Assembly (NCBI GenBank): GCA_007117355.1
Contig: SKGS01000044.1
Coordinates: 1 to 64,000 of the forward strand
From: Lishizhenia sp.
Lineage (GTDB): Bacteria > Bacteroidota > Bacteroidia > Flavobacteriales_D > Crocinitomicaceae
Direction of reading: 5' to 3'
DNA: 64,000 nt
Shown: positions 1,515 to 64,000 of the stretch, one piece after another
How positions within the stretch are numbered: position 1 is the first letter of the stretch
Layout of the letters: every line of letters starts with the position of its first letter
Program-made: the position numbers and the translations under genes
Notes under the pieces: generated by a model
What the model saw: the letters and a program-made list of their open reading frames with translations, nothing else
Told to the model about the DNA's origin: nothing
The model's database searches: none

Positions 1515-2234
1515 TTTTTATCTTTTTTGTTCCTTACAAAAGTAAAGTTTATTCTTAGTTTAGCATAATTGGGTGCTTTTCTATTCAGTTATCTAGTTTA
1601 ATTAACAATTTACACTTCTTATAAACAAAATTGAAATATCGATTTTTATTTTATACAGATTATCAAGCCTTTAGTTTTTAGTTTTTACACAATTTAATTT
1701 GTAAAAATGTTAATATTTGTGCGTTAATAATAATTACTTTCTATTGTTATTTTCAAATATTATTCCAAACCATAACTTGAATGGATTGTGCAAGTAAAAG
1801 TTACCCCTTTTTAACACAAGTTATTAACGATTTATAACATCGTTTTGTGTTTAGATAAAAATAAATTCTATTAACACATTGGTTTTTCTTATCAATGTTT
1901 ATAAACTTTTATTTTGTTTATTTTCAATGTATTACTATTAGTTTTTATGTTTATATCTTTATTTATTATGTTAATTAACTATTAAGCAAGTATTAAATCA
2001 AATCTTTTTAAACCATTTCAACACCTTAATAAAAGGAATAAAGCTTTTTTAAAATTTTTTCTCTTTCTTTTTTTTATATTACTGTCTTGGATTTCATAAA
2101 AAAAACTGCAAATTGAAATTAATTCGTTAATTTCGTTTCAAGTGGTAAGAGATTGGTTAAATTTTAGTTGTTTTTTCTGAAAATCATTTATTTACTGTAT
2201 ATTGGTCTCAACTATATTACACGAATAAAAAAGT
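1515..2234. other. AT-rich divergent intergenic region, no gene seen
   Basis: These 720 bases separate the diverging rpiB and response-regulator genes. The stretch is very AT-rich, with poly-T runs near 2040-2080. I find no ORF with coding character, no RNA gene and no strong hairpin. It presumably carries the two divergent promoters. I looked for DnaA boxes (TTATnCACA) because of its composition and saw none. Confidence 0.6.
1537..1544 (-). promoter_or_regulatory. Putative -7 box (TACTTTTG) of rpiB
   Basis: TACTTTTG on the minus strand matches the Bacteroidota TAnnTTTG -7 element and lies 23 bp before the rpiB ATG. I see no clear -33 TTG at 17-23 bp, so this is only a candidate. Confidence 0.35.
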
Positions 2235-2996
2235 ATGTCAAAAATAAGAGTTTTTGTTGTTGAGGATGAGGCTATTGTTTCAAAAGATATCCAACAAAGT
2301 TTGATTCGATTAGGGTACGATGTTGTAGGTTCTTCTGCCACAGGTGAAAAAGCCTTAAGTTTAGTTGAGGAAATTTTACCTGATATTGTTTTAATGGACA
2401 TTATGCTAAAAGGCGATATGAGTGGTATTGAAGCCGCCACAATTATTAGAAAAGATAATGCTATTCCAGTTATTTTTCTCACAGCATATGCTGATGATGC
2501 AACATTAGATAAAGCTAAAGTAGCGGAACCTTACGGATATATAATCAAGCCCTTCAAGGAGGTTGATTTGCATACTGCCATAGAAATGGCAATATACAAA
2601 CATAAAAGAGAAATGGAGTTAGTTCAAAAACAAGAAATGCTATACTCCCTAGTAGAAAATAAAGAAGCAAAAGAAAATAAAGATTACATTTTTGTAAAAG
2701 CCAATGCTAAATTGGTTAAACTAAAAATGGATGAAATTTATTACATCGAAGCACTTAAGGATTATGTAGCTATTCATACACAAGCGAAGCGATATACTAT
2801 CCATTCTACCATGAAAGACATTGATCGTAAACTTGGTAATGAAGATTTTATAAGGGTTCACAGGTCATTTATTGTTCGTATTGATAAAATTGCAAGTATT
2901 GATTTTCCTAATTTGCATTTAGAAAATGATAAAAAAATGATTCCTATTGGTGGTTCTTATAAAGACGATTTATTGAAAAGCATTAATCTTTTCTAA
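2235..2996 (+). CDS. LytTR-family response regulator (REC + LytTR)
   Basis: This 253-residue response regulator has an N-terminal receiver domain (about 1-125) with the acidic pair ED at 10-11, the phospho-acceptor Asp55 in LMDIMLKG, and the conserved Lys in the YIIKPF motif. A short linker leads to a LytTR DNA-binding domain (about 148-253) with the usual YYIEALKDYVAIHT and FIRVHRSFIV segments. In Bacteroidota such regulators are normally paired with a 7TMR or LytS-type histidine kinase, but none is adjacent here, so the kinase is elsewhere. The M23-like peptidase gene starts 4 bp after its stop, so the two are probably co-transcribed. The targets are unknown. Confidence 0.93.
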   Translation: MSKIRVFVVEDEAIVSKDIQQSLIRLGYDVVGSSATGEKALSLVEEILPDIVLMDIMLKGDMSGIEAATIIRKDNAIPVIFLTAYADDATLDKAKVAEPYGYIIKPFKEVDLHTAIEMAIYKHKREMELVQKQEMLYSLVENKEAKENKDYIFVKANAKLVKLKMDEIYYIEALKDYVAIHTQAKRYTIHSTMKDIDRKLGNEDFIRVHRSFIVRIDKIASIDFPNLHLENDKKMIPIGGSYKDDLLKSINLF

Positions 2997-3000
2997 AAAG

Positions 3001-3687
3001 ATGAGTCAATCATTTAGTGATTTCTTAAAAAGTCAATACTCTTTTGCGTTACCTATATTTAATTCTTCCTTAGAGGATTATCAATCTATTGACTTAAGTA
3101 AAACGAACAAAAATTTATGGAATCAAGTTAATCCTTCTGACCCTTTAGAAATGCAAAAGTATATTTCTAATTACTTGGAAAAGAAAGGTAAAAATATTGC
3201 TTTTGGTGGTTACTTAGAACATCGCAATATTTATGATAGAAGTGCTTATTTTAAGGAAAAAGAAAATCGTTTTATACATTTAGGAATAGATTTTTGGACG
3301 AATGAAAATGCTGGAATAGCTGCTGTATTTGATGGCACAATTCATAGTTTTAAGAATAATAAAAATTTTGGTGATTATGGACCAACATTAATTTTAGAAC
3401 ATAACGCTAAAGGTTTTACTTGGTTTAGTTTATACGGCCATCTTTCACTAGACTCTATGCTTTATTGGCAAATTGGTAAAACCATAGCTTCAGGAGAAAG
3501 GATAGGTTATCTTGGTGCTATTTCAGAAAATGGGAATTATGCGCCACATTTACACTTTCAAATTATGCTTAATATGGAAGGAAAATCAGGAGATTATCCT
3601 GGAGTAACAAGTGAAAAAGAAGTTCATCATTTTCAAAATAATTGTCCTAATCCTTTATATTTATTTCCTGAACTAATGAAAATGTAA
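3001..3687 (+). CDS. M23-family (LytM-like) peptidase
   Basis: This 228-residue protein carries the M23 fold from about residue 85 on. The metal site is visible as HLGID (His93, Asp97) and PHLHF (His183, His185), with the accessory His147 in YGHLS. M23 enzymes cleave peptide bridges in peptidoglycan. All canonical residues are present, so it should be catalytically competent. No convincing signal peptide is seen at the N-terminus (MSQSFSDFLKSQYS), which is odd for a wall hydrolase; it could be exported another way or act on a cytoplasmic substrate. It follows the response regulator by 4 bp, hinting at a shared transcript. Confidence 0.85.
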   Translation: MSQSFSDFLKSQYSFALPIFNSSLEDYQSIDLSKTNKNLWNQVNPSDPLEMQKYISNYLEKKGKNIAFGGYLEHRNIYDRSAYFKEKENRFIHLGIDFWTNENAGIAAVFDGTIHSFKNNKNFGDYGPTLILEHNAKGFTWFSLYGHLSLDSMLYWQIGKTIASGERIGYLGAISENGNYAPHLHFQIMLNMEGKSGDYPGVTSEKEVHHFQNNCPNPLYLFPELMKM

Positions 3688-3717
3688 TTATCACATGCAA
3701 CCAATTAAAGCTTATTT

Positions 3718-4284
3718 GTGTCTATAATGCGAAGCCATAACATGGAGGATAATGAGCTTATTAAGGCATGCTTGAAAGGTAATTCAAAAGCGCAACGCTT
3801 ACTTTTTGAAAAGTTTTCGCCATTAATGATGGGAGTTGTGCTGCGTTATGTTTCCAGTAAAGAAAAAGCAAATGATGTGCTTCAAGATGGTTTTATAAAA
3901 GTGTTTAAGAACTTAGATAAGTTTAATAATCAAGGTTCTTTTGAAGGATGGATACGAAGAATAATTATTAATACTGCTCTTGATCAATTAAGGAAAGACA
4001 AAAAGTTTCAAAAAGAGATAGAAATAGACGATGTTTCGTTATCGCTTTCTATTGATAGTAATGCGATAGACTTAATGCAAGCGGAAGGACTTATGCAACT
4101 CATTCAAGGTCTTCCTGAAGGTTACAGAACAGTGTTTAATTTATATGCTATTGAAGGTTATACACACAAAGAAATTGGAGAGTTTTTAGATATTGCAGAA
4201 AACACATCAAAATCGCAATATTCAAGAGCTAGAGCACTACTAAGAGATATACTAAAAAAAGCTGGTATTGAAAGAGAAGGATGA
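3718..4284 (+). CDS. ECF-type RNA polymerase sigma factor
   Basis: Sigma70 region 2 is visible (LLFEKFSPLMMGVVLRYVSS through GSFEGWIRRIIINTALDQLR), followed by region 4 (LPEGYRTVFNLYAIEGYTHK, then EIGEFLDIAENTSKSQYSRA). There is no region 3, which is the ECF architecture. The track begins at GTG 3718; ATG 3727 and ATG 3742 (MEDNELIK) are in frame, and I favour 3742 because ECF factors usually begin near that motif. The gene overlaps the next one, a single-pass membrane protein, by 17 bp, the usual arrangement of an ECF sigma factor with its regulator. Target genes cannot be told; T9SS or envelope genes are a guess from the partner's C-terminal domain. Confidence 0.92.
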   Translation: MSIMRSHNMEDNELIKACLKGNSKAQRLLFEKFSPLMMGVVLRYVSSKEKANDVLQDGFIKVFKNLDKFNNQGSFEGWIRRIIINTALDQLRKDKKFQKEIEIDDVSLSLSIDSNAIDLMQAEGLMQLIQGLPEGYRTVFNLYAIEGYTHKEIGEFLDIAENTSKSQYSRARALLRDILKKAGIEREG

Positions 4285-5413
4285 AATAAAGGAATTATTT
4301 AAAGAATCACTTGAGAACTACTCCTCAAATGTAGATCCTAGTGTTTGGAATGCTGTTCAAGCTGGTATAGGAAATGCTGCTGCGGCTTCTGGTGGTTCTG
4401 GTTTTTTGGCTGGTGTTTCATCTACGGCTAAAATTGTTTCTTCTGTAATTGTAGCTAGTTCAATTATTACAGCGACAGCCATTTATATTTTAAGTGATGA
4501 TGCGTCAAAAAAGGAAAATACAATCGAAAACTCTATCATTGAACAAACGAAAGAAGATAAACGTGAAGACTCATTAGTCCAAGAAAACGAAGATGAAAAC
4601 AGTGTTTCTAATGATAATCGACAAACTGAAAATATATCCAAAATTGATAATTCGGAGATTGTAGATGATACAATTGAATCTAAAGAAGGTCAAGAAGCGA
4701 CTGATTCTAGTAACAAACAAGACGATACTCAACTTCCAGATACTAAAAATTCAGGTCATAATTCTAGTGGTTCTGTTTTTACTTCAGAAACAAGTACTAA
4801 TTCCGAAACTCCATCGGTAACTCAAAAAACAGAACAAACAAGTTCTAGTGCGTCAACTGAAGCGGATACATCTTCACCAGTTGAACTCGAATCAGAAGAG
4901 CCTTTCCAATTAAATGTTGTATTTGAACAACTGAGGAAACAACAAATACGAATTGAACTAGAAACTTCTGAGTTGGATGATTTCTGGATAGATGTAGGCG
5001 ACGGTACTGAATTTAGGAGCGATATCGTTGAACATTGGTATGAAGAAGCTGGAGAATATGAAATTCTAGTTACTGGAAAAATCGGAGAAGAATATTACTA
5101 TGAAACGCATCTTGTAAAGGTGGAAGTAGTTGGAAAAATCAATAATCTTCCGAATGTTTTTACTCCAGATGGTGACGGATTGAATGATTATTTATTTATT
5201 GATTCCGAAGGTTTAACAGCCTTTCAAATAACTGTTTTTAATTCAAAACGAGAAGTAGTTTATGAATCCAACGATGTCGATTTTAAGTGGTATGGAGAAG
5301 ATTTACGTAGTCAACAAAAAGTAGAAAAGGGTAATTATTATTACATCATTATTGCCAGAGACAAACTTGGTAATGTTATTCATAAACACCAAACACTTTC
5401 GGTTATTTATTGA
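4268..5413 (+). CDS. Single-pass membrane protein with PKD-like and T9SS sorting-like (CHU_C) domain; possible anti-sigma factor
   Basis: The protein has a cytoplasmic N-terminus of about 52 residues (ELFKESLENYSSNVDPSVWN), one membrane span (about 53-74, AKIVSSVIVASSIITATAIY), a long acidic Ser/Thr/Glu-rich linker, a PKD-like segment (about 215-290, FWIDVGDGTEF) and a C-terminal gliding-motility-associated domain beginning LPNVFTPDGDGLNDYLFI (about 293-381). It overlaps the ECF sigma gene by 17 bp and its only good start is TTG 4268. I infer an anti-sigma-like role from position and topology: N-terminus inside, C-terminus in the periplasm. The CHU_C domain normally ends secreted T9SS cargo, so finding it on a membrane-anchored protein is unusual. 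It might instead be a structural surface protein. Confidence 0.8.
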   Translation: MKEKDEIKELFKESLENYSSNVDPSVWNAVQAGIGNAAAASGGSGFLAGVSSTAKIVSSVIVASSIITATAIYILSDDASKKENTIENSIIEQTKEDKREDSLVQENEDENSVSNDNRQTENISKIDNSEIVDDTIESKEGQEATDSSNKQDDTQLPDTKNSGHNSSGSVFTSETSTNSETPSVTQKTEQTSSSASTEADTSSPVELESEEPFQLNVVFEQLRKQQIRIELETSELDDFWIDVGDGTEFRSDIVEHWYEEAGEYEILVTGKIGEEYYYETHLVKVEVVGKINNLPNVFTPDGDGLNDYLFIDSEGLTAFQITVFNSKREVVYESNDVDFKWYGEDLRSQQKVEKGNYYYIIIARDKLGNVIHKHQTLSVIY

Positions 5414-5574: not shown

Positions 5575-7914
5575 TTGTTGGTGCGATATTTAGCAATTCT
5601 TTTATTTTTTTTATTGGTTTTACCTATTTTTTCACAAAATGAGAAAAAAACCTTGCTTACATTATCCCCAAAACGTGGTAATCATGTTGGTTTAGAAGAG
5701 GTAAAAGTTCAACTTTCCAGTGGTTGTAAGGCTTATTACACAACAGACGGAACACAACCAAGCTCCTCATCTAATAAAGTGCGAGGCAACTCAATTTCCT
5801 TAAAGGGTAATACGGTTTTTCGGTTTGCGATTTATGATGGAAAAGGAAATAAATTTGAAGAAACCCATACCTACATTGTAGCGAGAAAGGTAGAGCTTCC
5901 TATTATTTCAATTATTTCGGATCCAGCTGTTTTTTTTGATTCTTTAGAAGGTATTTATGTAAAGGGGTGTTGTGCAGATACAGTTCATCCATACAAAGGT
6001 GCAAACTTCTGGAAAGATTGGGAAAGAAAAGTATATGTTGAATTCTTTGAACCAGATGGTAGATTAGGATTTAGTCATCCTTTAGGAATAAAAATATTCG
6101 GTGGTTACAGCAAAGGAATGCCTCAAAAATCGCTTTCATTCTATGCTAGAAAAAAACATGGAAAGGGAAAAATTAAACATCCTCTTTTTCCACAATTACC
6201 CTTTAAAAAGTACAATAATTTTATTTTGCGTAATGGCGGTGGTGATATGCGAAATGCGCATATTAGAGACGTTTTTGCAACACAATTGATAAAAGAAACC
6301 GGACTTACAATTCAAGAATGGCGACCTGTAAGCGTGTTTATAAATGGAGAGTATTGGGGAAAATATAACATGCGAGAGAAGATAAACGAGCATTTTATTT
6401 CAGCTCATTATGGCATGCATAAAGATAGCGTCATAATCATGCGACATAATGCCGATAAACAACATGGAGACCCAAAAGATTATAGAAAATTTATTAAAGA
6501 GTTAGAGAAAAGTGATTTAAGAAATCGTGAGGATTTAAATTATGTCGCATCAAAAATGGACATTGATAATTACCTATTGTACAATGCAGCTCAAGTTTAT
6601 GCTGGAAATAAAGATGCTGGTGGTAATATCCGCTATTTTAAATCAACAAGAGATACTGGTAAATGGCGATGGATTTATTATGATTTGGATCAAACATTCG
6701 GTGTAAACGGTCCACATGATTATAAATATAATAATTTAGAACGTTTTACACAAGTCAACGATGAAACGTGGCCAAACCCTCCTTGGTCCACCTTGATAAT
6801 TCGAAAATTAATAGAAAATGATTCCTTGAAATATAGATACATCAATACCTTTTCTGATATGATATTTACAACTTTTGCACCTCAACGAGCTTTAACATTG
6901 TTGGAGAATTTAAAGCAACAAATGAAAGAAGAAATTCCTTTTCATTTGGAAAGATGGAAAGTGCCACTTAAAAGATACAATTCAAGCATGGCTCATATAG
7001 ACTCTTTTGTTGTCAATAGACCAAGATATATGTTACAACATTTAGCTAGTCGATTTGAGCTTGATAAAATGGTTGAAATTAGCATTAAAATGGATTCCAC
7101 TAAAGGAAAAGTAAAATTTAATTCATTAGTGTTATTCAAAGACTTTAATGGGAAATATTTTTCTGAAATACCTCAGTTTATTGAGGTTATACCAAATACT
7201 GATTTTGAATTTATCGGTTGGGAAAACGGTATAGAAATAAGCGAAAATGGCATGTATTATTTCAATGAAGAAAAGATAATTCTAACTCCAATTTTTGAAG
7301 AAAAAAAATACTCTCCTTTCTATGGAAAAATTATGTTTTCTGAGGTGGATGCCTTTCAAATAAACAGTTTAAAATCTGCTGACTGGATTGAATTATATAA
7401 TGCTTCTTCTGAAGAGATTGATATAGGAGATTGGGTGTTTAAAGATAAAAAAGAACAACATTCTTTTACTTTTCCAATGAATACAAAAATTCAACCAAAA
7501 GAGTTTTTGATTCTTTCAAAAAACAAAGCAAAGTTTCAGCGTGCATATCCTAATATTAAAAATATTGTTGGAGATTTTAATTTCGGAATAAATATAAAAA
7601 GTGATGTTATTCGCTTGTATGATAGTAACTTACTAAAAGTAGATGAATTAAGTTTAAAAGAATTGAACGATTTTAGTGACTCAACAAAAAATTGGGTAAA
7701 AATGGATTACAGAATACCTTATTTCCACCCATTAAATTGGAGGTTAGAATCCCCTTCTCCTGGTCAGCAAAGCATGGCTTATGCAAAAATTCTTAAAGAA
7801 GAAAAGGAAGACGAAAAAATTAAGTCTTGGTTGATTTATTTTGGTATTGGGTTAGGATTTCTTTCTTTCATTATTTTTTTAGTTACTTTGTATTATAAAA
7901 ACAAAAAGACCTAG
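5575..7914 (+). CDS. CotH-family protein with chitobiase/hexosaminidase-like and lamin-tail domains
   Basis: The 779-residue protein has a signal peptide (ending PIFSQ), a chitobiase/beta-hexosaminidase C-terminal-like domain (about 30-105, ACYTTDGTQPS-like text YYTTDGTQPSSSS), a CotH domain (about 190-470, with ILRNGGGDMRNAHIRD, YWGKYNMREKINEHF and WRWIYYDLDQTFG), and a lamin-tail domain (about 584-700, ADWIELYNASSEEIDIGDWV). It ends with a membrane segment (about 751-772) and a basic tail KNKKT. CotH proteins in Bacillus and fungi are spore-coat or surface proteins with a kinase-like fold; function here is unproved. An in-frame TAG at 5560 leaves only TTG 5575, TTG 5578 or GTG 5581 as starts. 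The C-terminal anchor is unusual for a Gram-negative surface protein. Confidence 0.87.
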   Translation: MLVRYLAILLFFLLVLPIFSQNEKKTLLTLSPKRGNHVGLEEVKVQLSSGCKAYYTTDGTQPSSSSNKVRGNSISLKGNTVFRFAIYDGKGNKFEETHTYIVARKVELPIISIISDPAVFFDSLEGIYVKGCCADTVHPYKGANFWKDWERKVYVEFFEPDGRLGFSHPLGIKIFGGYSKGMPQKSLSFYARKKHGKGKIKHPLFPQLPFKKYNNFILRNGGGDMRNAHIRDVFATQLIKETGLTIQEWRPVSVFINGEYWGKYNMREKINEHFISAHYGMHKDSVIIMRHNADKQHGDPKDYRKFIKELEKSDLRNREDLNYVASKMDIDNYLLYNAAQVYAGNKDAGGNIRYFKSTRDTGKWRWIYYDLDQTFGVNGPHDYKYNNLERFTQVNDETWPNPPWSTLIIRKLIENDSLKYRYINTFSDMIFTTFAPQRALTLLENLKQQMKEEIPFHLERWKVPLKRYNSSMAHIDSFVVNRPRYMLQHLASRFELDKMVEISIKMDSTKGKVKFNSLVLFKDFNGKYFSEIPQFIEVIPNTDFEFIGWENGIEISENGMYYFNEEKIILTPIFEEKKYSPFYGKIMFSEVDAFQINSLKSADWIELYNASSEEIDIGDWVFKDKKEQHSFTFPMNTKIQPKEFLILSKNKAKFQRAYPNIKNIVGDFNFGINIKSDVIRLYDSNLLKVDELSLKELNDFSDSTKNWVKMDYRIPYFHPLNWRLESPSPGQQSMAYAKILKEEKEDEKIKSWLIYFGIGLGFLSFIIFLVTLYYKNKKT

Positions 7915-59744: not shown

Positions 59745-61418
59745 TCACTGAACATAAACTTTTCGTTTGACATCTATCACAACAGCTCTGTTTTTTGCAT
59801 GCTCTTTTTCTTTGCACCCATCATTACAATCATATAAGGGGTCGTTTTTTCCTTTTGACGTTAATTGAATTTGAGTATTCGAAACACCAATAGAAAGGAG
59901 TTTGTCTTTAACAGATTGAGCACGTTTTAAACCTAATTTATAATTATACTTCGTTGGCCCTCTATTATCAGTATGACCGGTAAGAATTATTTCATAATCC
60001 TGATTATCTGACAAAAAAGCAATCATTTCTCTTACCTCCTTTGAATTTTCTTTCAACTTGAATTTGTCAAAGTCAAAATATACAATAAACTTTTCCCATT
60101 TATCGAAAAACTCCTGAATTTTTTTGTTCTTTTCTTTTTCCTCTTCAGTAAGCTCTTTTTCCTCATAAGCAACGAATTCACCAAACTTAATTCCAAAAAT
60201 GTTATCGTCTTCAAAATCAGAAAACCTGTTTGTGCTATAAATTGCAGAATCTAGTTGCATATTATAATAAAATGAAAAATCGTCTTTAGGGCTATTTATC
60301 GGTGCTAACCAATGTACAATATCCTCAAACTTGCCATTCTTGAAAAACGCAGTGTAAATATCTAAGCCTCCGTAACCTACTCTGCCATTTGATGCAAAAG
60401 ACATTAAGGTGTCAGAAATAAAAAGCGGATACATTTCATCCTCATCTGTATTAATTGAACTTATCGCTTGTGGTTCAGACCATTCATCTCCAACACTGTA
60501 GGTTGCCATTAAATTTGATGTGCCTAGGTTTTCATCCATTTGTGCAAAAACCACCAAATTTCCTTTTGGATGATATGTAGGCATGTTCACACTTACTTTA
60601 GTATGTTTGGTTGGCTGCCATTCGTCGGTTAACATAAAAGTTAGAGAGCTTGGGTTAAATGAGGCTTCAAAAATTCGTTGAATTTGTTCATTTGAAGATT
60701 TAGCCAAAGGGTTAGAAATAGCAACTAAAGCAAGGTCTTTAGTTGGATGAATTGAAATTGCCGACACAGACAGATGTGTTTCTAAATTGGAGAATATCAT
60801 AGGTTTAAGAGAGTCTTTTTCCAAAAGATATGGTCGTAAAACAAAAAACTCAGCTTGTTGGGTTTCATTTTTGGCTAGCACTCGTTTTTTTGCATCTAAT
60901 CCAATTTCTTGTAAAACAACGAGTCCATGTGCCGACTGATGGCATATTATAGTAGCTTTATTTTGATTAAACCAAAAAGGAATATTTTCTTTTACTATTA
61001 AACTTCCCCAAGTAAATGCTTCTAGACAAGATAGTTTATACATGGTCATATCTATACTTCCATCTGTTTTTTCAAACTTTTCATACCATTCGAGAGCACT
61101 TTCATAAAAGCCCAACGCTCTATCTACCTCACCCTTGATAAAAAAGAAATAAGGCTCAATTTCATTTGAATTCAGTAGCCATTCCAAAGGTTCTTTGGCA
61201 GCAGGGAAATTGCCGATTACATAATTGGAGTAAATAAGTTGCTTTCGCTCATCCGAATTCATTGATGTCGGAGTTTCTTCCCAAGCTTGGTTTAGTATTT
61301 CAGCGGCTTTATGGTATTCAAATCTTTGGAAATAATTATTAGCAAGTTCTAAATCAGATTGACAAAAAACCCAACTAAAAACAAACAATAAGACACAAGA
61401 TAAGAATAACTTAATCAT
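59745..61418 (-). CDS. OmpA-family protein with TPR-like and PD40-like regions (T9SS-associated)
   Basis: This 557-residue protein has signal peptide LFLSCVLLFVFSWVFCQ and N-terminal TPR-like helices (about 20-130, DLELANNYFQRFEYHKAAEI). A beta-propeller-like PD40 region (about 190-420, NTDEDEMYPLFISDTLMSFA, GRVGYGGLDIYTAFF) leads to an OmpA domain (about 440-555, FIVYFDFDKFKLKENSKEVR, ILTGHTDNRGPTKYNYKLGL) that binds peptidoglycan. Its start overlaps the PorP/SprF stop by 4 bp (ATGA). Together with the adhesin and SprF-like protein it forms the usual adhesin-PorP-OmpA operon of T9SS cargo systems, where it probably anchors the complex to the wall. Confidence 0.93.
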   Translation of the reverse strand: MIKLFLSCVLLFVFSWVFCQSDLELANNYFQRFEYHKAAEILNQAWEETPTSMNSDERKQLIYSNYVIGNFPAAKEPLEWLLNSNEIEPYFFFIKGEVDRALGFYESALEWYEKFEKTDGSIDMTMYKLSCLEAFTWGSLIVKENIPFWFNQNKATIICHQSAHGLVVLQEIGLDAKKRVLAKNETQQAEFFVLRPYLLEKDSLKPMIFSNLETHLSVSAISIHPTKDLALVAISNPLAKSSNEQIQRIFEASFNPSSLTFMLTDEWQPTKHTKVSVNMPTYHPKGNLVVFAQMDENLGTSNLMATYSVGDEWSEPQAISSINTDEDEMYPLFISDTLMSFASNGRVGYGGLDIYTAFFKNGKFEDIVHWLAPINSPKDDFSFYYNMQLDSAIYSTNRFSDFEDDNIFGIKFGEFVAYEEKELTEEEKEKNKKIQEFFDKWEKFIVYFDFDKFKLKENSKEVREMIAFLSDNQDYEIILTGHTDNRGPTKYNYKLGLKRAQSVKDKLLSIGVSNTQIQLTSKGKNDPLYDCNDGCKEKEHAKNRAVVIDVKRKVYVQ

Positions 61419-62368
61419 ATTTTGGGAGAATAAATTCTATTTCGTTTTAACCAAGGAACGTCTATAGTTTGACTATTTTTAGGGAAAATTTGAATTTCAA
61501 CAAAAACCTCGTGAGAACCTGTAGCGTGATTCATTAGTTCAGAACGAGTAAAATCATAAGCGTAGCCCACTTTTAGTGCACCAAGTTGAATCCCCCCCAG
61601 AAAAACAATTGCATCCTGATGACGATAAGATGCTCCTAGCCACATTAAGTCTTTGATTATTAGCAGCCCTGTTGCATCTACTTGATAGTTCAATGTTTCA
61701 ATAGCTTGACCAAGAGCCATTGCCCTAAACTTGAAGTTATTTCCAATGTTAAATGTATATCCTCCAGCAACATAATATGTTCTCACAAGCGGATTGTAAA
61801 CTATTTCATCGAAACGATATAAGTCTTTGCGTGATTCAACCAAATTATGTGCAGATATTCCAAAAAATGCTTTATTCGTGTTGTAGTAATATAATCCCGC
61901 ATTTAAATCTGGAACCATTTGATTGTTAAAACCTCTTGCAACTGCTGGGTCATCTGGTAAATATGTATTTATCTTATTTACATCAATAGTATTTTGAGAT
62001 AAGGACATGCTCAAGCCCATTCCTAATCTGTTTTTATCCTCTTTATCTAAACGAAGGTGATAACTTGTGTTAATTTGGATTCCGGACCTTCTGCTTGGGC
62101 CAGCCACATCGTTGTAAAGCACACCACCAATTCCCATCCTTTTTCCTGCATATCCGTGAGCCGTAACGGTCTGCATGGTTGGTGCATCGGCTAATCCAGC
62201 CCATTGTCTTCGGAAACTGGTATGAATGGGAATGTATTCTTTTGATCCTGCTGCCGCTGGGTTTATTATCGTCTCATTGAATAAGTACAATGAGTTTAGT
62301 GTTAATTGTTGTGTGTATCCAAACACAGCAACAAAAAACAGACCAGTTAACAATAGTATATTCTTCAT
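61415..62368 (-). CDS. PorP/SprF family type IX secretion membrane protein
   Basis: This 317-residue protein has signal peptide LLTGLFFVAVFGYTQQ followed by the family opening LTLNSLYLFNETIINPAAAG, with FRRQWAGLADAPTMQTV and GLSMSLSQNTIDV. The rest is beta-barrel-like and ends NRIYSPKI. PorP/SprF proteins are needed for export or attachment of a specific T9SS type-B cargo; the cargo is the SprB-like adhesin directly upstream (2-bp gap). The 4-bp overlap with the OmpA-like gene downstream indicates coupling. Intact, normal length. Confidence 0.95.
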   Translation of the reverse strand: MKNILLLTGLFFVAVFGYTQQLTLNSLYLFNETIINPAAAGSKEYIPIHTSFRRQWAGLADAPTMQTVTAHGYAGKRMGIGGVLYNDVAGPSRRSGIQINTSYHLRLDKEDKNRLGMGLSMSLSQNTIDVNKINTYLPDDPAVARGFNNQMVPDLNAGLYYYNTNKAFFGISAHNLVESRKDLYRFDEIVYNPLVRTYYVAGGYTFNIGNNFKFRAMALGQAIETLNYQVDATGLLIIKDLMWLGASYRHQDAIVFLGGIQLGALKVGYAYDFTRSELMNHATGSHEVFVEIQIFPKNSQTIDVPWLKRNRIYSPKI

Positions 62369-62370
62369 AA

Positions 62371-64000
62371 TTAACGTATTATAGAGATGGTTCCCTTAAG
62401 GATATCTTGATTATCATTATTCAGTTTTATTATCCAATAGTAAACTGAAGCAGGAAGAGGTTCGTCATTAAACGTTCCATCCCATGGTTCATATTCACCA
62501 ATAGATTCGTAAATTTTATTTCCCCATTTGTTAAACACTTGAAGTTCTAATGACGGATATAAATCGGTATTATCAATTACCCAAGTATCGTTATAATTAT
62601 CTCCATTCGGGGTAAAAGCATTTACTGGGTCAATACATCCTATTGGTTCTTTGCCAACTTCTACAGAGCCAGAAGTATTACAACCTAAAAAATCTGTTGC
62701 TGTTACAGTATATGTCCCTTCTGAAAGATTGTTGTTTTCCGAAGTAATGGCACCGTTGCTCCATAAATATGTAAACCCCCCATTTCCACCGGATGCTGTA
62801 ACCCAAGCAATTCCATCAGTTTGATCGCTACAACTTACTAATTGGGTTTCAAAAGATAGTTCAATAGGTTGTGGTTCAATCAAGGAAGCTTCTATACTTG
62901 CGACACAACCATTTGAATCAGTAACAGTTACATTGTAAAACCCAAAAGGTAGATTTTCTAAATCCTGTGTAGATGCGCCGTTCGACCAATCAAAATTATA
63001 GGGTTCTGTTCCTCCATTTACATCCAATAATATACTTCCTAAAGTTCCACCAGCACAGCTTACATCGGTAACAGAATAATCCAACAACAAAGAGTCTGGT
63101 TCGGTTAACTCTATGAAGTGATTCGATAGACAACCATTACTATCTGAAACTTCTAATTGATATATTTCTGCTGGAAATCCGATTAAATCCTTTTCTTGTG
63201 TTGCTAAGGCAAATAATGAATTAAACCAACTGTAACTGTAAGGACTTGTTCCGCCAGTTGGGTTGATAATTATTTCCCCATCGCTTAATCCTTTGCAAGA
63301 TATTGATAAAACATCTTCATTTAGCACAATTGGTTCTGGTTCAGTAAGGGTAAATGTTTCATTTAGAAAACAACCATTGTTATCTGTTACATTAGCCACA
63401 TAAACACCAGCTGTCAAGTTTTGAATTGTTGGGTTAGACCCACCGTTAGACCATTGATATGTGTAATTTGGTGTTCCGCCTGTCACAAGAATAGTAATTT
63501 CTCCATTTGTTCCATCATTACACGTAACATTTCTTTCAATAGAAGAAAACTGCATTTCACTATCTGGTTGGTTAATAACAGTTGACGCCTGAACATTGCA
63601 TCCGTTTCCATCTGAAACAGTTAGGTTATAATTGCCTGCTGGAATATCTTGAAGTGAGCTACTAACGTCATTAGTATTCCATAAATATGAATAAGTACCT
63701 GTTCCACCTGAAACAGAAGAAGAAATCGTCCCATTAGACTGACCAAAACACAAGACGTCAGATTTTTCAAGCGAAACAGTAAGTATTTCTGGAGAATCTA
63801 TCGAAATCTGACCATTTTGTTTGCAGCCATTTGCATCAGTCACTTCGTACATGTATTCATCAGAAGGAAAGCCAGTTAAATTATTAGAAGTAACACTAAG
63901 TAAAAACTCACTATTTGACCAACTAAAATTATATCCAGGAGTTCCTCCAGAAACAGAAAGGTTTACAGAACCTGTGCTTTCTCCGAAACAAAGAACATCT
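62371..64000 (-). CDS. SprB-repeat adhesin with T9SS type-B sorting domain (partial, 5' end off window)
   Basis: The track reports 493 residues from the first Met, but the frame stays open to base 64000 (…FGESTGSVNLSVSGGTPGYN), so the true N-terminus lies to the right. It consists of at least eight tandem SprB-type repeats (about 75-80 residues, each with CxGxxxGxI, GGTxPYxYxWSNG, YxVTVTDxNGC). It ends with the CHU_C sorting domain CIDPVNAFTPNGDNYNDTWV. Such proteins are surface adhesins, e.g. SprB for gliding in Flavobacterium. The PorP/SprF and OmpA genes downstream on the same strand form its operon. Total length and ligand cannot be judged. Confidence 0.95.
   Translation of the reverse strand, partial: DVLCFGESTGSVNLSVSGGTPGYNFSWSNSEFLLSVTSNNLTGFPSDEYMYEVTDANGCKQNGQISIDSPEILTVSLEKSDVLCFGQSNGTISSSVSGGTGTYSYLWNTNDVSSSLQDIPAGNYNLTVSDGNGCNVQASTVINQPDSEMQFSSIERNVTCNDGTNGEITILVTGGTPNYTYQWSNGGSNPTIQNLTAGVYVANVTDNNGCFLNETFTLTEPEPIVLNEDVLSISCKGLSDGEIIINPTGGTSPYSYSWFNSLFALATQEKDLIGFPAEIYQLEVSDSNGCLSNHFIELTEPDSLLLDYSVTDVSCAGGTLGSILLDVNGGTEPYNFDWSNGASTQDLENLPFGFYNVTVTDSNGCVASIEASLIEPQPIELSFETQLVSCSDQTDGIAWVTASGGNGGFTYLWSNGAITSENNNLSEGTYTVTATDFLGCNTSGSVEVGKEPIGCIDPVNAFTPNGDNYNDTWVIDNTDLYPSLELQVFNKWGNKIYESIGEYEPWDGTFNDEPLPASVYYWIIKLNNDNQDILKGTISIIR

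Follow-up and report, generated by a model that had tools for sequence, protein, structure and literature searches.

A predicted Dma-like anti-sigma factor ending in a type-B sorting fold is encoded beside an ECF sigma factor with a candidate T9SS cargo regulon in the Crocinitomicaceae

Why would a membrane protein with the topology of an anti-sigma factor, encoded in overlap with an ECF sigma factor, end in the domain that normally serves T9SS cargo as an export signal? The question arises from a 64,000-nucleotide stretch of Lishizhenia sp. (assembly GCA_007117355.1, contig SKGS01000044.1, positions 1 to 64,000; hereafter the window), which is part of a 3.09-Mb draft genome in 280 contigs. 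The answer that we favor, at a probability of roughly 0.6, is that the sigma factor is autoregulated, that its partner is a trans-envelope anti-sigma factor built on the plan of the Dma proteins and bearing a type-B sorting fold, that the regulon consists of T9SS cargo, and that the pair would operate through docking of this fold at the T9SS. The promoter and the two genes are arranged as follows.

3696–3701, plus strand: −35-like element TGCAAC of a predicted autoregulated ECF promoter, conserved in orthologous upstream regions
3720–3723, plus strand: −10-like element GTCT, 18 bp after TGCAAC, conserved at fixed spacing
3742–4284, plus strand: ECF sigma factor gene, 180 aa from ATG 3742 (Pfam matches, homology, promoter position)
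4268–5413, plus strand: predicted Dma-like anti-sigma factor gene with a PKD-like and CHU_C end, 381 aa, TTG start

Both open reading frames recognized by the first-pass annotation are present and share 17 bp (4268–4284), but the start of the sigma gene had been placed at GTG 3718, which opens the longest frame (3718–4284). The most likely start is instead ATG 3742, because a conserved GTCT lies at 3720–3723 and homology begins at MEDNELIKAC. The product matches the Pfam families Sigma70_r2 (E = 8e-19) and Sigma70_r4_2 (E = 4e-15). It has the marks of an ECF sigma factor, in that it carries sigma-70 regions 2 and 4 only, is linked to a predicted anti-sigma gene and stands behind a promoter whose motif predicts autoregulation.

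This promoter prediction draws on 30 orthologous sigma upstream regions. GCAAC is invariant in all 30 (TGCAAC in 28), and [G/A]TC[T/A] follows at the 18-bp spacing in every one (GTCT in 27), with the motif residing 13–40 nt ahead of the start codon. At the promoters of the paralogous sigmas of the Lishizhenia genome TGCAAC-N18-GTCT was sought and is absent, and most barrel-type and other relatives lack it, something similar being seen in a few. The sigma factor is thus predicted from this motif to transcribe its own operon.

The same promoter provides a means of identifying further targets. An exact search of 39 genomes for TGCAACYTT-N15-GTCT returned 47 places, 18 of which are at the sigma gene and 29 elsewhere, as against 5 and 9 matches for spacers one base longer or shorter, respectively. 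Nineteen of the 29 precede CHU_C cargo, encoded either by a single gene or within an operon of two genes, where the expected share would be about 1.25% of genes (35 of an estimated 2,800), or about 2.5% allowing for the second gene; the corresponding P, ~5e-24, is too small in that related genomes are not independent. Once this cargo rule had been drawn up, 12 further genomes were searched, and in them 6 of the 11 places away from the sigma gene likewise precede CHU_C cargo or its operon (P ~1e-7, with the same caveat of kinship). About 10 different cargo genes are represented among the targets, and orthologous sites are common to related genomes. Across the 39 genomes, 24 contain both motif and pair, 1 the pair only, 2 the motif only and 12 neither. 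No T9SS machine genes were seen among the exact promoter matches.

Two peculiarities of these sites can be noted. At several loci (L281, L282, L283, L384, L389, L390 and L415) the motif-driven operon is headed by a small secreted protein of ~100–150 aa, with the CHU_C cargo gene second; it is possible that the small protein is a dedicated chaperone or partner of that cargo. In addition, two of the nine control matches with a 17-bp spacer (L407 and L408, both in genome G016) head CHU_C-cargo operons, and so a spacer of this length may be tolerated.

In the Lishizhenia genome itself, TGCAAC-N18-GTCT occurs four times: at the sigma promoter, at position 15322 of contig C129, and at two places without a suitable gene. 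A choice-of-anchor-L protein of 726 aa, which has a type-B sorting domain, starts 25 nt after the C129 site. Among 30 own cargo domains none is closer to that of the partner protein than this one, a resemblance that is suggestive only. There are also points against a cargo regulon. The C129 site scores 6.5 bits with the full profile, compared with 23.2 bits for the sigma promoter, and matches the −35 extension poorly; the motif is found at only 1 of 34 other CHU_C genes in this genome; and about one-third of the non-sigma sites in the multi-genome search have no CHU_C gene, some of them presumably matching by chance. A loose search of the Lishizhenia genome (up to 3 mismatches) gave 273 matches versus 418 for a reversed control, and so speaks neither for nor against such a regulon. 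Overall, of the first-pass proposal that secretion is linked to gene expression, the tie between this sigma factor and the T9SS is well supported by computation, through the CHU_C cargo of the predicted regulon.

The partner protein can be divided into the following parts.

4268–4396, plus strand: N-terminal cytoplasmic domain, residues 1–43, predicted to bind sigma (motif F..KL...E..V.P..W..I; hhalign)
4427–4492, plus strand: single membrane span, residues ~54–75 (hydropathy in the partner and its homologues; sequence)
4493–4900, plus strand: disordered Ser/Thr/Glu-rich tether, residues ~76–211 (alignment, low pLDDT)
4901–5125, plus strand: PKD-like β-sandwich, residues ~212–286 (Pfam, alignment, AlphaFold)
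5144–5407, plus strand: CHU_C, the T9SS type-B sorting fold, residues 293–380 (Pfam PF13585, pLDDT >90)
5240–5251, plus strand: altered recognition loop NSKR, residues 325–328 (cargo has NRWG; Arg occupies the Gly position)

The position of the span leaves ~53 cytoplasmic residues ahead of it, in agreement with the topology initially read here (about 52 such residues, one span and a periplasmic part). AlphaFold, given an alignment of 36 homologues, predicts N-terminal helices at residues 5–16 and 24–35, a low-confidence stretch at ~39–201 and two β-sandwiches from ~212 to 380 with pLDDT >90. The second sandwich matches PF13585 (residues 293–363, E = 2e-14, over the Pfam cut-off), and it is the C-terminal CHU_C fold expected of type-B cargo, though its score with the type-B sorting model TIGR04131, 25.9 bits, is under the 35-bit cut-off that is passed at 33 other places in the genome. 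The cleavable N-terminal Sec signal peptide of such cargo appears to be absent, as alignment and hydropathy place the conserved ~53-residue domain before the span. The PKD match is under the cut-off in this protein, but PKD_4 is matched by 19 of the 36 aligned family members (best E = 2e-15) and CHU_C by all 36, which bears out the PKD-like and CHU_C end originally assigned. Tether length varies across the family, and the PKD-like sandwich is missing in shorter members (~270–310 aa). A sequence search of the PDB retrieved mostly PKD domains and the end of the Aureispira GhpA protein.

Comparisons can be made with the dual membrane-spanning anti-sigma (Dma) proteins, which were reportedly first described by Pardue et al. 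in PNAS in 2024. Those of Bacteroides thetaiotaomicron are anti-sigma factors encoded beside ECF21 sigmas (PMC13088901), and the window partner resembles them in its pairing with an ECF sigma, an N-terminal domain that would bind sigma, one span, a long disordered tether and a large C-terminal β domain. It differs in ending in PKD-like and CHU_C sandwiches, whereas Dma proteins end in an outer-membrane barrel, and in its predicted targets: T9SS cargo here, NigD-like proteins or polysaccharide utilization loci for Dma. Because the barrel is missing, the partner is Dma-like and not a strict Dma member; the likeness was drawn from the published plan and from barrel-type partners of related sigmas.

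Partners of related sigmas in Bacteroidales, Chitinophagaceae and Saprospiraceae have a similar start (F..K....E..PP...W..I) followed by a membrane span, and many continue to an outer-membrane β-barrel (PF13568 in 13 and PF13505 in 8 of the 34 scanned). The N-terminal domains of CHU_C-type partners and of the non-CHU_C partners of related sigmas are homologous, with an hhalign probability of 98.3 (E = 1.7e-14). This homology to barrel-type partners and the conserved linkage described below uphold the anti-sigma plan proposed at the outset, and binding of the sigma factor by the partner is very likely.

Three sigma/partner pairs of this plan exist in the Lishizhenia genome, and as they differ at the C-terminal end, the family is, by sequence, a modular one with an exchanged far end, CHU_C standing in place of the barrel. 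The first is the window pair. In the second (L190, contig C242; partner 1997–3115, plus strand), the C-terminus is barrel-like (OMP_b-brl, E = 2e-5, under the curated cut-off), and the partner has its span around residue 41 and lacks a clear match at the N-terminus; a Dma-like protein of this kind therefore resides alongside the CHU_C type in one genome. The partner of the third (L182, contig C29; 89–1429, minus strand) has a strongly diverged CHU_C (24.8 bits with the own-cargo profile). Its likely orthologues (L198, L199, L201, L202, L205, L206 and L207) delineate a second conserved sigma/anti-sigma-like pair, in which the partners are 377–446 aa long with PKD and a strongly diverged CHU_C-like end (~20–30 bits with the same profile), the sigmas form a separate clade (support 100/100) and the promoters lack TGCAAC-N18-GTCT.

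A partner-only search of 59 relatives found full-length homologues. Although sigma was not used as a query, an ECF sigma gene lies directly 5′ of the partner, mostly overlapping it, in 25 of the 25 assessable cases, an assessable homologue being one with its 5′ flank on the retrieved DNA; homologues unlinked to sigma genes, which would have spoken against the pairing, were not encountered in this set. With further loci included, 30 of the 36 Crocinitomicaceae genomes have the pair; among the six without it, four are only 79–86% complete and two belong to one genus. As the first-pass annotation had suggested looking for, the pair also occurs in other Flavobacteriales families, and in a few more distant Bacteroidota. 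The recurrence of the same gene pair in many genomes indicates that the pairing is more than chance. The closest sigma relatives with named hosts include Fluviicola, Crocinitomix and other Crocinitomicaceae, and in a tree of 123 sigmas, 37 CHU_C-linked sigmas form one group (support 98/89). The remaining CHU_C-linked sigmas lie outside this group, with placement that is not firm, and so the CHU_C type may have had a single origin or several.

The locus is syntenic through much of the family. A search of its neighborhood for a conserved third component identified none, the surroundings being syntenic core genome. Upstream, the sigma gene is separated from a LytTR response regulator gene by an M23 peptidase gene (3001–3687); most relatives have in place of the peptidase gene a divergent ~410-aa gene, which was not found in the Lishizhenia genome. 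On the 3′ side of the pair, positions 5575–7914 encode a protein that combines CotH-kinase and lamin-tail domains and has a membrane span at its C-terminus; a homologue of it lies near the pair in 10 of 30 loci compared. Far downstream (59745–63852, minus strand) is a typical type-B cluster of CHU_C cargo, a PorP/SprF family protein (TIGR03519, E = 3e-65) and a PorE/OmpA-like protein.

What, then, might the outer end of the partner do? It could be that PKD and CHU_C form a generic periplasmic sensor of ligand or stress on a Dma-like anti-sigma factor, with no T9SS contact and with cargo as output only. CHU_C is an Ig-like fold, its export motifs are lost, and a Foldseek search of the PDB with the partner yielded generic Ig/FnIII-like matches and nothing else. 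Yet the FTPNGDGxND and WxG core of the sorting domain is retained across 43 partner domains of this modular family, the predicted targets carry the same fold, and the target in the Lishizhenia genome has the own-cargo domain nearest to the partner's. We consider a generic sensor unlikely.

Alternatively, the C-terminal domain could be exported by the T9SS, such that the partner spans both membranes and CHU_C senses the outside from the cell surface. Its topology parallels that of Dma proteins (PMC13088901), and the ~135-residue tether is long enough to cross the periplasm. The sorting motifs argue otherwise, as seen when 34 cargo CHU_C domains (30 from the Lishizhenia genome and 4 from relatives) are compared with the 43 partner domains. 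The Trp of the NRWG loop is present in 33 of 34 cargo domains versus 1 of 43 partners, and its Gly in 34 of 34 versus 24 of 43; the C-terminal motif is found in 30 of 34 versus 6 of 43, the six being a minority that speaks for export. The window protein has NSKR and ends in HKHQTLSVIY, lacking both the NRWG loop and the C-terminal G.h.h.R/K motif of cargo. The type-A sorting domains of Porphyromonas gingivalis need both the strand 3–4 loop and the C-terminus, and RgpB secretion is hindered when a Gly in this loop is replaced by Arg (PMC11285876). From its position and the following strand we infer that this loop is the equivalent of NRWG, in which case the Arg of the window protein would correspond to the change that blocks RgpB secretion (PMC11285876). 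Members of 270–310 aa with short tethers also fit poorly, and export of this end appears quite improbable.

Because the NRWG loop is lost and the C-terminal motif mostly so, the CHU_C of the partner is, as judged by its motifs, not a normal export signal: the fold named in the first-pass annotation is there, but in a form altered from that of cargo. The type-A analogy suggests a domain retained because of its fold, and perhaps because it docks, that is not exported; if the partner imitates cargo, it is probably a tethered, non-exported look-alike. That it is ordinary T9SS cargo which merely carries CHU_C and has a sigma gene upstream by accident is rejected as extremely improbable, given sigma linkage conserved across families, the loss of cargo motifs, an N-terminal domain common to non-CHU_C partners of related sigmas and a span that, unlike an N-terminal signal peptide, follows ~53 residues.

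In our preferred reading, that of a trans-envelope anti-sigma factor docking at the T9SS, TGCAAC-N18-GTCT promoters would let the sigma factor transcribe, besides its own operon, a small number of genes for T9SS type-B cargo, and the partner would act as its brake. PorP/SprF-like barrels in the outer membrane serve as binding partners of type-B cargo (PMC9143113). The tethered CHU_C could reach the outer membrane and dock at the site used by such cargo, whether a PorP/SprF-like barrel or the SprA translocon, and would stay there unexported because its recognition loop is changed. The chances of docking seem to us evenly balanced: without the cargo loop, and mostly without the C-terminal motif, the domain may escape T9SS recognition entirely. 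How far that site is occupied would depend on how much real cargo is present or on how the T9SS is faring, and a change in occupancy would alter the anti-sigma factor, causing it to release or hold sigma; release might follow from free sites or from jammed ones. More tentatively, and somewhat short of an even chance, the whole may be a feedback switch, in which a tethered, non-exported sorting domain competes with or reports cargo at the exit site and so controls the cargo's own sigma. If so, barrel-ended Dma proteins would amount to this device adapted to a different pathway of the outer membrane.

Other anti-sigmas, namely those of FecR-type cell-surface signaling and FlgM, likewise relay the condition of a machine in the outer membrane or for export; FecR does so from a TonB-dependent receptor, and FlgM is soluble and itself exported. 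The window partner, in contrast, is membrane-tethered and has an altered sorting domain. In P. gingivalis, the PorA/PorXY-SigP system similarly has a sorting-domain protein feeding a T9SS-linked ECF sigma, but there the protein, PorA, carries a signal peptide and a type-A domain and sits at the cell surface, its signal passes through a two-component system, and the genes targeted encode components of the T9SS (PMC7712824). In Flavobacterium psychrophilum, the regulon of the SM6 promoters is also ECF-type and contains T9SS genes along with an operon for an ECF sigma and its anti-sigma; these promoters have a CGT box and T9SS machine targets (GldN, PorU), as opposed to TGCAAC-N18-GTCT and cargo genes here (PMC9723704).

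Thus, barrel-type Dma/Das pairs, PorA-PorXY-SigP and the F. psychrophilum ECF regulon with T9SS components were known already (PMC7712824, PMC9723704). No earlier report of a CHU_C-ended anti-sigma factor or of a TGCAAC-N18-GTCT promoter was found in the literature searched, which covered few subscription journals. Within that literature, what is new is an anti-sigma-type protein with a T9SS sorting-fold end, its conservation and its altered loop, as well as a promoter joining that sigma to cargo of the same fold.

These features bear on what Dma and other trans-envelope anti-sigmas of the Bacteroidota sense, and on how flavobacteria adjust the synthesis of cargo to what the T9SS can handle. 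The type-B sorting fold common to the outer domain of the anti-sigma factor and the predicted sigma targets offers a direct, testable link, and the promoter consensus can serve directly as a reporter and narrows the targets to a short list. As the sigma motif recurs before genes bearing the partner's own tag fold, the analysis suggests that how much of certain exported proteins the cell makes depends on the condition of its secretion machinery.
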